Program-made: the position numbers and the translations under genes
NCBI GenBank assembly: GCA_034620365.1
Contig: JAQGEQ010000124.1
Span: 372,001-436,000 of the forward strand
DNA length: 64,000 nt
Reading direction: 5' to 3'
From: Pegea sp. RAD2-039
Lineage: Eukaryota > Chordata > Thaliacea > Salpida > Salpidae
Shown here: one piece after another, positions 7,455 through 64,000 of the stretch
Layout: the number at the start of each line of letters is the position of its first letter
How positions within the stretch are numbered: position 1 is the stretch's first letter
The notes under the pieces: model-generated
The model's input: the letters and a program-made list of their open reading frames with translations, nothing else
Databases searched by the model: none
What the model was told of the DNA's origin: nothing

Positions 7455-10400
7455 TTATCCAGTAGACTGCCAAACAACACACATCTTATTTTTGTCTCCA
7501 GTCACAAGTTTTCCACATTTCCAATTACAGTTAATAACAGGATCACTAAAAAATAGAAAAATTTTAAATGAAGTAGAAAAAAATTATTTTCTGCTAAAAA
7601 ATTAGTTAAGTTTGAAATACTAGACAAATAGTGAAGTTGAATTGATTCACTTTTAAGAACTAGCAAAATAACTTCAAAAAAAAGAAATATTAGAAACAGA
7701 AACCATATTTTGATCTTAAAGAGATGGAAGATATCAAAACAAACAGATGTAACTCTGATACAAGTTGTTAGAGAGTTTGAAGATAAGAATAATTAGAAGA
7801 AGAAATCATATTTTGATCTTGATGAGATGGAAGATATCAAAACAAACAGATGTAACTCTGATACAAGTGGTTAGAAAGTTTGAAGATCAGAAGAATTAGA
7901 AGAAGAAATCATATTTTGATCTTGATGAGATGGAAGATATCAAAACAAACTGATGAAACTCTGATACAAGTGGTTAGAAAGTTTGAATATCAGAATAATT
8001 AGAAGAAGAAATCATATTTTGATCTTGATGAGATGGAAGATATCAAAACAAACAGATGTAACTCTGATACAAGTGGTTAGAAAGTTTGAAGATCAGAAGA
8101 ATTAGAAGAAGAAATCATAATTTTATCTTAAAGAGATGGAAGATATCAAAACAAACTGATGTAACTCTGATACAAGTGGTTAGAGAAATTGAACACCAGA
8201 ATAATTAGAAGATGAAATTGCATTTTGATCTTATTATTGACTTGGTATTGATGGTCGAAGAGTTTTTACAAATCAAGCTGTTATCACGTGAGAACTCATT
8301 CACAAAATTTACAAACCTGTGAAGATACTGAAGTGAAACAAGTTGTTCTGTTTGTACATCCCATGTAAACACACCACCATCAAGTGATCCAACAGCTACA
8401 TATTGACCATCAGGTGAAAAACAACATCTAGTTTGATCAGTAGATACTTTGAAGCTATCATGACTAAAAAACATCAAACTTAAATGGCTAAAATCGAAAA
8501 TGGCCCAGTTACAAACCAAAACACTTTTTTGACGTTCGATTTTCTTAAATCGACCAACTCTAGAGTATGGTCCTTGGTACAACAGACTAATGACTTCATA
8601 TCGTTAGGCATATCTAATGACGTCACTCGGCCACCGACAGAGATCTCATTTATAATTCCATGATTTGATCTGAATAAAACCTCGTCAAATAATCAGTCAA
8701 CAAAAACCTCCACAAACCTTGTGTCCCAAACTCGAATCTTTTTATCAAAATGACCGCTGACCACACAGTCAGCAAAATCGGCGCTGATGACGTCATTACA
8801 TGAAGAGCCTGCCATCAAAGTTCGTTGACATGCTCCTGACCTTGAATCCCAAATCTTAAAAGATATGACGTCATTAGAAGGTGCATGACGTCACTATAAT
8901 CAAGATGACGTAATCAGTAATCACCTTGACAGTTCGGTCGTGACTTCCAGTTGCAATCCTATTGGACGATCCAAGAAAACGACAAGAAAGAACTTTTCCT
9001 CCGTGCCCCGTTAAAGTTAGCTGCAAAAATTAGATGAAGATGAAAATCAGGTCAGAGATGAAGATCAGGTCAGGGATGAAGATCAAGTGTTCGGGGATGA
9101 AGATCAGGTGTTCAGGGATGAAGATCAGGTGTTCGGAGATGAAGATCAGGTCAGAGATGAAGATCAGGTGTTCAGGGATGAAGATCAAGTGTTCAGGGAT
9201 GAAAATCAGGTTAGGGATGAAGATCAGGTGTTCAGGGATGAAGATCAGGTGTTTAGGGATGAAGATCAGGTGTTCGGAGATGAAGATCAGGTGTTCGGAG
9301 ATGAAGATTAGGTGTTTGGAGATGAAGATCAGGTGTTTGGAGATGAAGATCAGGTGTTCGGGGATGAAGATCAGGTGTTCGGGGATGAAGATCAGGTGTT
9401 TAGGGATGAAGATCAGGTGTTCGGAGATGAGGATCAGGTCAGGGATGAAGATCAGGTGTTTGGAGATGAAGATCAGGTGTTCGGAGATGAGGATCAGGTC
9501 AGAGATGAAGATCAGGTGTTTGGAGATGAAGATCAGGTGTTTGGAGATGAAGATCAGGTGTTCGGGGATGAAGATCAGGTGTTCGGGGATGAAGATCAGG
9601 TGTTTAGGGATGAAGATCAGGTGTTCGGAGATGAGGATCAGGTCAGGGATGAAGATCAGGTGTTTGGAGATGAAGATCAGGTGTTCGGAGATGAGGATCA
9701 GGTCAGAGATGAAGATCAGGTGTTTGGAGATGAAGATCAGGTGTTTGGAGATGAAGATCAGGTGTTCGGGGATGAAGATCAGGTGTTCGGGGATGAAGAT
9801 CAGGTGTTTAGGGATGAAGATCAGGTGTTCGGAGATGAGGATCAGGTCAGGGATGAAGATCAGGTGTTTGGAGATGAAGATCAGGTGTTCGGAGATGAGG
9901 ATCAGGTCAGAGATGAAGATCAGGTGTTTGGAGATGAAGATCAGGTGTTTGGAGATGAAGATCAGGTGTTCGGGGATGAAGATCAGGTGTTCGGGGATGA
10001 AGATCAGGTGTTTAGGATCAGGTGTTCGAGATGAGGATCAGGTCAGAGATGAAGATCAGGTGTTCGGAGATGAAGATCAGGTGTTCGGAGATGAGGATCA
10101 GGTGTTCGGAGATGAGGATCAGGTCAGAGATGAAGATCAGGTGTTTGGAGATGAAGATCAGGTGTTCGGAGATGAAGATCAGGTGTTCGGGGATGAAGAT
10201 CAGGTGTTCGGAGATGAAGATCAGGTATTTGGAGATGAGGATCAGGTGTTCGGAGATGAGGATCAGGTCAGAGATGAAGATCAGGTGTTCGGAGATGAAG
10301 ATCAGGTGTTCGGAGATGAAGATCAGGTGTTCGGAGATGAGGATCAGGTCAGAGATGAAGATCAGGTGTTCGGGGATGAAGATCAGGTGTTCGGGGATGA

Positions 10401-62669: not shown

Positions 62670-64000
62670 TGATGACGTCATTTGGTTTTATTTATTTTTT
62701 AGGAAAATGCTTCGAATAAATTATTTTTATGTTAATTTGTTTTGCTAGATTACAAATTTGAACAAAATTAAGGTTTCATGATTCTAGGCGAAGATTTTTT
62801 ACAAGTTTAGGTGCTTAATTGTCCCCTAAGTGCTGAGATTTAGGTTTTTAGATGGGATCTACAAGAACCTCAGCAAAATATTTAGTTTAAACTTAAATAT
62901 GCTTGACGTCAAAAAGCTATATGATGTCATCAACAACAGACTACTTCAACATTTCAACAAATTGCATTTCTCACGTGACTAACTAATAATCAAATCAGAA
63001 TATCAAAGAAAATCATGATGACGTCATCAGCACTCGATATTTAGTCTCTTAGTGGGTTTTACGCTCTGATAGCATAGATATAAATTTGGCCAACGAACTA
63101 AACGTTAAAAGTGATGGAAATTATTGTAAATTGCTTAAAAAAAACTTCTTCAAAATCGGCAAACCACAAAAATAAATTAATGAAAAATTGAAGTTAAAAA
63201 TCAAAAACTAATCTAACAAATAATTTAAAAAAATTCACAATAAATTGTTACAAATAATAGGTTTTAAGTAAACTTGTTTTAATAAAACCAACTGTGGTGA
63301 TATAAGTATACTGTATTACACATCAATTCCAAATATTCATTTATAAAAAATCAGCCAACAAAAAGAAAAGAGAAAAATCATTTCGATTTTGCAACCCACA
63401 AATATAAGATTAAATGGGTTTAATAAATACCAAGGTTTGTTGGTTAATATTTGAAACACTATTAAAAGTTTAGAATAACTTCTTATTTTGGAGGTTGAAC
63501 AAGTTTCAACTAAAAATCCAATAAATTTGATGTCTTGAGAACATAGCTTGCTTTGTGATAAAGAAATATTAATATTTGGTTACATCATAAAAATTAATTA
63601 ACAATGAAGAATTAAAAAATCACATACTAGTCAAAATGTTATTCAAGTTTTGCTTGATTTCATTATTTTAATAAAGAATAATGAGTTAATGAAAATATTA
63701 ATCAAATTCAGAAGATAATGATATTACGTTTCTATTAATTCTAATTCTTGTTTAGAAAATAAAGATAACAACAATTCTAGTAACTTTGGATTATGTAATA
63801 AAGATATTTGAAAAGTTTTATCTCTAGTCTTAGTAGATAGTAGATGGTTGCAGTTTTATTGGTTTTCTGATTGAAATCTTTTAGTATTTTTGATCTTTAT
63901 AGAAAGTAACCTTAAAACACATTGTTATTGTGTAACTTCAAAACTTCGTTTATCGTTTAAATCAAACTTTAGCGTTTACTTTAAAAATTCAACAATTGAA
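62670..64000. other. Downstream AT-rich region
   Basis: No gene is supported to the end of the window. The right copy of the ~190-bp CRE-containing segment lies at 62905-63090. Beyond it the sequence is AT-rich without repeats or RNA genes that I recognise. Confidence 0.5.
62905..63090 (+). repeat. ~190-bp CRE-containing segment, right copy
   Basis: Blocks TTGACGTCA, GATGTCATCAACAAC, AAAATCATGATGACGTCATC and TTAGTGGGTTTTACGCTCTG correspond in order and spacing to 59686-59880. Confidence 0.8.

Follow-up and report, generated by a model that had tools for sequence, protein, structure and literature searches.

An exact eight-letter palindrome in genome-wide excess, packed into the genes of a salp

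How does a single short word come to fill the genes of an animal? The question is raised by a 64,000-nucleotide stretch of the salp Pegea sp. RAD2-039 (contig JAQGEQ010000124.1, positions 372,001 to 436,000; C107:372001-436000 within the genome), which we call the window. Its subject is the palindrome TGACGTCA, the core of the cyclic AMP response element (CRE). A first, sequence-only reading had counted about 80 exact sites by hand where composition predicts fewer than one. Both figures were correct: the window holds 83 exact sites, whereas 100 dinucleotide shuffles gave a mean of 0.54 and a maximum of 3. Markov models trained on the window predicted 0.45 (order 1), 0.71 (order 2) and 8.3 (order 3) copies, the last value being inflated because the model was trained on the sites themselves.

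Genome-wide excess and the unit behind it

A genome-wide count, which the sequence-only reading had proposed as its check, gave 27,792 copies of TGACGTCA and 969 of the reversed word (105,744,746 bases, 387 contigs). This rules out an effect limited to the window. The density in the window (1.30 per kb, 83 in 64 kb) is about five times the genome mean of 0.26 per kb; the window is thus denser than the mean but no exception in kind. Indeed, exact copies of one eight-letter palindrome run to tens of thousands in this AT-rich animal genome, packed into genes.

The whole-genome counts cover five words, and all other results rest on a 246-kb sample, consisting of the window, which was chosen for its sites, and loci L001-L021. 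The position-chosen set comprises 17 ten-kilobase loci, ten of which carried sites. L001-L004 entered as holders of the 14-mer TGATGACGTCATCA; they were kept in the variant, flank-base, first coding-density, block, bin, peptide and spacing counts and left out of the position-chosen, recomputed coding-density and mirror-flank counts. Masking eight tandem arrays in the window dropped one of the 83 sites (20119); the flank-base, satellite CpG and per-locus CpG counts are unmasked. The densest locus seen was L017:4024-9737, with 32 sites in less than 6 kb around short predicted exons, one of which reads like what we take to be a CDC42-effector motif.

The excess belongs to the exact word. In the sample, with arrays masked, TGACGTCA was 81-fold above the order-2 expectation (165 sites versus 2.0), and its 12 one-substitution classes reached 0 to 3.9-fold. 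Among the top classes were TGATGTCA, the CpG transition (3.6-fold, 43 copies), and TTACGTCA (3.3-fold). Genome-wide, the base after TGACGTC was A in 27,792 cases and a different one in 1,531 per strand. Decay or precursor forms do exist, since TGATGTCA in both orientations occurred 11,070 times in the whole genome versus 2,673 for its reversed form. The bias of TGACGTCA over each of its 12 neighbour classes was 3.2 to 5.6 natural-log units, which amounts to a scaled coefficient of about four, whether selection or conversion is at work; this rough estimate assumes equilibrium and site-defined blocks, with two zero-count classes set to 0.5. Fold values within site-defined blocks (ATGACGTA, variant strengths) are inflated because the blocks are defined by the sites. 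AP-1 words (TGASTCA) were not enriched (27 versus 36.3 expected). Three other palindromes stood out in the sample: CGCGCGCG ranked as high as TGACGTCA by ratio (84-fold) but with 3 copies only, and the CpG palindromes TCACGTGA (21 copies, including 7 within predicted coding DNA) and TGGCGCCA (8 copies) were enriched 10.6-fold and 20-fold, respectively.

The immediate flanks are part of the pattern. The base preceding the site was A in 67%, G in 23%, C in 6% and T in 3% of 332 flanks (A or G: 90%), and genome-wide T preceded 1,165 of the 27,792 sites (4.2%). The preference was alike in predicted coding DNA (43 of 50 flanks purine) and in other DNA (239 of 260). We conclude that the unit is the 8-mer plus purine/pyrimidine flanks, RTGACGTCAY, that is, the CRE core with CRE-like flanks; the human CRE is described as a 10-bp element, GTGACGTCAC (PMC3464117). 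Mirror positions on the two sides varied independently at five of the six tested, as expected for two monomers that each read one half-site; position -3 was nominally correlated (p 0.04).

Beyond about -3 the flank composition was flat and the mirror flanks -4 to -6 were uncorrelated, and by these two measures the sites have no sequence in common outside the 8-mer with its immediate flank. The sequence-only reading overstated the extension of "many" sites to TGATGACGTCATCA: it applies to 7 of 83 sites in the window and 1,972 of 27,792 in the genome, where the reversed 14-mer is absent (0 copies). A TGA on both sides was found at 17 of 155 sampled sites versus 13.3 expected from independent sides, and TGATGACGTCATCA is unsupported as a separate unit despite the nominal correlation at -3. 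Neighbouring sites were more tightly spaced than when sites were re-placed within their blocks (52 gaps below 100 bp versus 41.6, standard deviation 4.3), and no helical phasing (9.5-12 bp) was found among the sampled sites.

Gene blocks and coding DNA

Coding segments were predicted from codon use, with sites masked and after training on hand-picked sample frames (15 of 16 seeds usable); the coding counts exclude the LINE (long interspersed nuclear element) segments at 28-31.3 kb. Site density per kb was 1.44 in predicted coding DNA (30 in 20,853 bp), 1.10 in non-coding DNA within 1 kb and 0.42 in the rest. Without L001-L004, 25 sites in 18,024 bp of coding DNA (1.39 per kb) compared with 68 in 57,453 bp of nearby non-coding DNA (1.18 per kb; p = 0.47). 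Predicted coding DNA thus holds as many sites as the non-coding DNA near it, which bears out, for the sample, the earlier claims of gene association and of sites in coding exons.

Eighteen of the 30 coding sites were read as xTG-ACG-TCA and 12 as T-GAC-GTC-A; none lay in the TGA frame, by construction, because segments end at stops. In 67 of the 72 segments (five were dropped from the codon and peptide reshuffling as low complexity), we counted 28 coding sites versus 1.56 with synonymous codons reshuffled and 0.39 with codon order reshuffled. The excess over synonymous reshuffling means that codons are chosen to give TGACGTCA for the same proteins. The proteins seem to be affected as well as codon choice: the patterns [MVL]TS and DV[IMT], which were picked after the sites were seen, occurred 26 and 14 times versus 6.9 and 3.0 in shuffled proteins, and the totals were modestly raised for DV (31 versus 25.4, standard deviation 4.7) and TS (56 versus 40.6, standard deviation 6.4).

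The sites and the two site-free frames that serve as internal negatives are arranged along the window as follows.

8618..8893: four sites in the ATG16L1-like gene region, gene on the minus strand
12171..13568: five sites (12171; 12224, a 14-mer; 12435; 13451; 13561) around the ATG16 exon frame 13188-13412
19091..21999: nine sites across the Orai gene region (frames 19342-19590 and 20775-21071), with site 20119 inside a tandem array
22833..24918: fifteen sites before, in and after the TSSK-like kinase gene
23671-24327: predicted coding segment of the kinase with five sites (24053, 24126, 24185, 24212, 24305)
24053..24060: kinase-domain coding site, reads G-TG ACG TCA (V-T-S)
24126..24133: kinase-domain coding site, reads T GAC GTC A (H-D-V-I)
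25933..27108: six sites in and after the Stum/Spec3-like gene (frame 25893-26126, Pfam match below cut-off)
28223..31147, minus strand: LINE-type retrotransposon frame (endonuclease and reverse transcriptase), no site, internal negative
33983..34735, plus strand: fucosyltransferase-like gene (Glyco_transf_10), no site, internal negative among genes
36401..38231: eight sites around the minus-strand predicted exon 36492-36665
41206..42566: three sites in the NSF-like (AAA) gene region
47277..48665: nine sites in the CLUAP1 gene region, with 48594 inside the Cluap1 domain (V-T-S) and 47277 and 47315 in the predicted acidic coding segment 47208-47402
53720..55185: seven sites in the bHLH (Atonal-like) gene region, with 54984 and 55155 in the predicted coding segment 54948-55172
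59687..63026: seventeen sites in and around the MEST-like (frame 60494-61534) and TIMMDC1-like (frame 61641-62666) genes
59680..59880, plus strand, ends approximate: diverged duplicated unit, copy 1, with two TGACGTCA and one TGATGTCATCAAC
62895..63085, plus strand, ends approximate: diverged duplicated unit, copy 2, with two TGACGTCA and one TGATGTCATCAAC intact

Among exon-sized frames, Orai, protein kinase, AAA and AAA lid (NSF), Cluap1, HLH and alpha/beta hydrolase scored above the curated Pfam cut-off. ATG16 was exactly at the cut-off, and both Spec3 (Stum) and Tim17 (TIMMDC1) fell below it. This check of the gene names of the sequence-only reading was at domain level; the exact names MEST, NSF and Atonal come from that reading. 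The six intervals that the reading had listed as site-free were correct on recount. Its confinement of the word to gene-rich blocks stands in outline, while the fucosyltransferase-like gene and the N-terminal exon frame of CLUAP1 (49312-49611) carry no site. No site was present in the frame 1296-2045, lectin-like by eye and with no Pfam match, or between 42567 and 47276, where the N-terminal frames of the NSF-like gene lie as judged by eye.

One rival account of such a word is ordinary CREB/ATF regulation, with many promoters and enhancers using full CREs and a compact genome making them look dense. The exact core with CRE flanks, the normal-looking set of basic leucine zipper (bZIP) proteins described below, the clustering of sites and the enrichment of some near-cognate forms within blocks all agree with it, as does the presence of sites no more than about 250 bp ahead of the first frames known for Orai and the kinase gene. 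However, the CLUAP1 sites, and by eye those of the NSF-like gene, lie further in, with none near the N-terminus, a placement that fits a simple promoter element poorly. In addition, coding DNA is not avoided, near-cognate words reach at most 3.9-fold over the whole sample, and the 27,792 sites in 106 Mb stand against 10,355 for the human genome without masking (Table 2 of PMC3464117). We regard ordinary regulation as an unlikely explanation. The earlier judgement that the sites are too dense for ordinary CREB targets was reasonable; the flank preference is nevertheless of the CREB/ATF (CRE) type, and a bZIP reading should therefore not be dropped. As a sequence the word is a CRE, but its usage is not that of the usual CRE.

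Two conserved domains bear on how the sites arose. The kinase stretch with sites 24053 and 24126 aligned without gaps to the solved TSSK6, the best PDB match of the window kinase (a 4-residue gap lies further upstream), and the site-bearing CLUAP1 exon placed 47 residues onto 47 profile positions with no net insertion or deletion (indel). In both domains the sites entered by substitution, not insertion. Remnants of a dispersed mobile element or satellite could account for tens of thousands of copies; satellites are abundant in the window, and one diverged duplicated unit of about 200 bp carries two sites. Against this, nothing is shared beyond the immediate flank, the two domains show no net indel at site entry, the window LINE has no site, and a search of the genome gave no further copy of the duplicated unit. 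Such an origin is hardly probable at all; a transposon or satellite unit is close to refuted by the flank, indel and copy-search evidence, and the idea of a dispersed palindromic repeat, in the mobile-element sense, is not supported. Overall, the earlier interpretation was partly supported.

Several further features of the window were recorded. The duplicated unit flanks the MEST/TIMMDC1-like pair; it had no Rfam match and no further copy in the genome search, and could be a small RNA gene or a regulatory element, as yet unannotated. The two genes lie on the same strand, 106 bp apart, with one long frame each, an arrangement like that of an operon or a retrogene pair. A 103-109-bp satellite, apparently one unit by eye in either orientation, is found at 7689-8232, 19576-20291, 38521-41070 and 43398-43745, in or beside several genes, and is nearly CpG-free. 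A strongly G-skewed 21-bp minisatellite of about 89 units (9055-10876), beside the WD40 exons of the ATG16L1-like gene, is open over long frames on either strand. Two tRNAs were the only hits when the window was scanned with Rfam and for tRNAs, and COX1, sought in the assembly for its mitochondrial code, had no match there.

CpG retention and the DNMT1-like family

The word is coupled to CpG retention. We sorted 1-kb bins by their observed/expected CpG ratio (CpG o/e), with sites masked and local dinucleotides allowed for, skipping incomplete end bins and bins with more than 200 masked bases (234 bins with 153 of the 165 sites). The observed/expected ratio of TGACGTCA rose from 30 (CpG o/e 0.5-0.7) through 53 and 148 to 247 (above 1.1). 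The association was present separately in the window (Spearman 0.79) and in the 17 position-chosen loci (0.36, p 1e-6), and coding segments within 500 bp of a site had a CpG o/e of 0.92 (39 segments) versus 0.61 in the others (33), with similar GC. The palindrome TCACGTGA showed no CpG trend (7 to 15-fold across bins). Together with the shuffles, the Markov models and the genome count, these composition-corrected bins rule out chance or composition as the cause of the excess.

TGATGTCA, the CpG-decay product, was enriched 1.3 to 2.3-fold in bins below 0.9 and 9.7-fold above. Relics of methylation decay in CpG-poor DNA are thus not apparent, as no marked TGATGTCA excess was found there, and TGACGTCA was therefore probably never common in such DNA.

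CpG methylation is plausible, since the genome encodes a DNMT1-like family (BAH and C5 methylase). Its frames are intronless and multi-copy, with 832-873 codons from stop to stop (L022-L027 on C57, C249 and C32 of G000), and further PF00145 matches lie on C52, C262 and C49. Both frames scanned with Pfam, L022 and L026, contain BAH and C5 methylase. As judged from motifs that we take to be diagnostic, L022-L024 keep the usual methylase motifs, whereas L025-L027 have open frames without the PCQ and ENV signatures, suggesting pseudo-enzyme paralogues. No TGACGTCA was found in these six loci.

The word invites comparison with the highly iterated palindrome HIP1 (GCGATCGC) of cyanobacteria. Both are one exact 8-bp palindrome, strongly over-represented genome-wide (here 27,792 versus 969), with few one-letter variants. 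HIP1 has a density of about one per 1,000 nucleotides (section 3.4 of PMC4390886), and the density near predicted coding DNA is 1.1 to 1.4 per kb here, with a lower genome mean of 0.26. By this analogy, the pattern may work somewhat like HIP1. However, the window genes are animal genes with introns and do not come from cyanobacteria, the word is limited to CpG-rich gene blocks, and it has a purine/pyrimidine flank. HIP variants are biased to the first and last nucleotides (Elhai 2015, PMC4390886), whereas those of TGACGTCA are not (outer classes: 0 to 3.9-fold; largest class: TGATGTCA). Since two HIP features failed, we do not class the pattern as HIP.

In its strict form, the comparison would imply an enzyme that modifies or recognises TGACGTCA and thereby creates and keeps the word. 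HIP words have been linked to cognate methyltransferases, with a proposed mismatch-repair ratchet (Elhai 2015, PMC4390886), and the amplified intronless DNMT1-like family could be seen as a counterpart, though its 8-bp specificity is not readable from sequence. The outer-letter variants, at 0 to 3.9-fold on tiny counts with the CpG transition as the commonest class, do not fit, and a purine flank is characteristic of bZIP proteins. Enzymes of the DNMT1 type act on CpG with no 8-bp context and, unlike for HIP1, we know of no cognate methyltransferase for TGACGTCA here. We consider this explanation very unlikely.

A proposed bZIP reader and the maintenance of the word

The simplest reader of the word would be a symmetric dimer in which each half reads RTGAC, that is, a bZIP of the CREB/ATF class. 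We found and translated 12 exon matches to bZIP_1, a search that may miss members. By basic-region signatures that we presume to be diagnostic, they include JUN-, CREB-, CREB3-, FOS/ATF3-, C/EBP-, CNC-, XBP1- and ATF6-like matches, with the CREB-like basic region at L030 and the JUN-like one at L029. The genome thus encodes cognate bZIP proteins, a CREB-like member included.

We tentatively propose that TGACGTCA is a CREB/ATF bZIP word turned into a highly iterated genomic mark. A CREB/ATF-class dimer would recognise TGACGTCA with its purine/pyrimidine flanks, and its binding would most likely help to hold gene blocks open and unmethylated in the germ line. Because binding would keep the block open, a new site would be useful anywhere in it, coding exons included, and a weak, mostly position-independent pressure on the number of sites per block could keep the word in certain genes. 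The known CRE has the identical core and, in its human 10-bp form (PMC3464117), a like flank rule, whereas the sites studied here are far denser, do not thin out within predicted coding DNA and, to judge by the window, are not promoter-confined. Also comparable are CpG islands and nematode PATC (periodic An/Tn cluster) sequences, which are sequence marks of open germ-line chromatin: they too are gene-level, position-tolerant signals coupled to CpG retention, but compositional ones, not one exact 8-mer.

Several observations weigh against this proposal. Outside the window, few loci supply the sampled sites (L017 has 32 of 73, and 7 of the 17 position-chosen loci have none), and an intact-looking window gene, the fucosyltransferase, has no site. 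Near-cognate words are present inside blocks: TTACGTCA reaches 7.5-fold in bins with CpG o/e above 0.9, where TGATGTCA is 9.7-fold, and ATGACGTA reaches 16-fold (20 copies) within site-defined blocks, a value inflated by the block definition. The CpG link is not smooth at its low end, where 18 bins below 0.3 hold 2 sites versus 0.02 expected (ratio 96) and 30 bins at 0.3-0.5 hold none, and L006 has 6 sites at an overall CpG o/e of 0.33. CpG depletion is a mere proxy for germ-line methylation, and the distribution of TGATGTCA means that methylation decay did not carve the pattern, though it fits sites that never existed outside blocks. Finally, keeping a transcription-factor word in conserved coding sequence is costly and unusual.

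The indifference to coding versus nearby non-coding DNA would be explained equally well by drive. Repair or meiotic gene conversion could favour the chromosome that carries TGACGTCA, for example if bZIP-bound DNA escapes breaks and acts as donor, and the word would accumulate as a by-product in open gene-rich DNA. The peptide excess, the confinement to CpG-rich gene blocks and the similar-sized bias implied for all 12 neighbour classes agree with this. In Schizosaccharomyces pombe, meiotic recombination is directed by the CRE-like M26 word, which shares the half-site ATGACGT, together with the ATF-type pair Atf1-Pcr1; breaks are less frequent at the bound site itself than next to it (PMC3534124). 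The yeast example goes no further than to show that this half-site, read by an ATF-type pair, is able to direct recombination; accumulation would not be expected of a hotspot word. A second haplotype of the 59.6-63.2 kb stretch, searched for in the genome, was not found. Known hotspot words are lost and not gained by conversion. We hold drive to be unlikely, though a live rival.

A bolder form of it, rather improbable in our view, would make TGACGTCA the first animal iterated palindrome to spread by its own transmission advantage. A bZIP dimer would shield the site from germ-line breaks or make it the preferred conversion donor; TGACGTCA would then invade open gene-rich DNA, write MTS, VTS and DVI peptides where they are tolerated, and keep genes rich in bZIP-bound unmethylated sites. 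This would be the hotspot paradox in reverse.

A literature search for the pattern or its parallels returned no such enrichment in an animal among the matches listed, as judged by titles and the beginnings of abstracts. To our knowledge, an exact 8-letter word at tens of thousands of places, conserved domains included, is otherwise found only in bacteria. If it holds in an animal, a transcription-factor word would serve as a genome-wide, position-tolerant mark of genes, or would have spread by biased repair, and in either case would have left its trace in proteins. In the salp genome one could then ask, by counting sites, how genes are kept open and free of methylation, and whether a motif can be raised by conversion instead of lowered.

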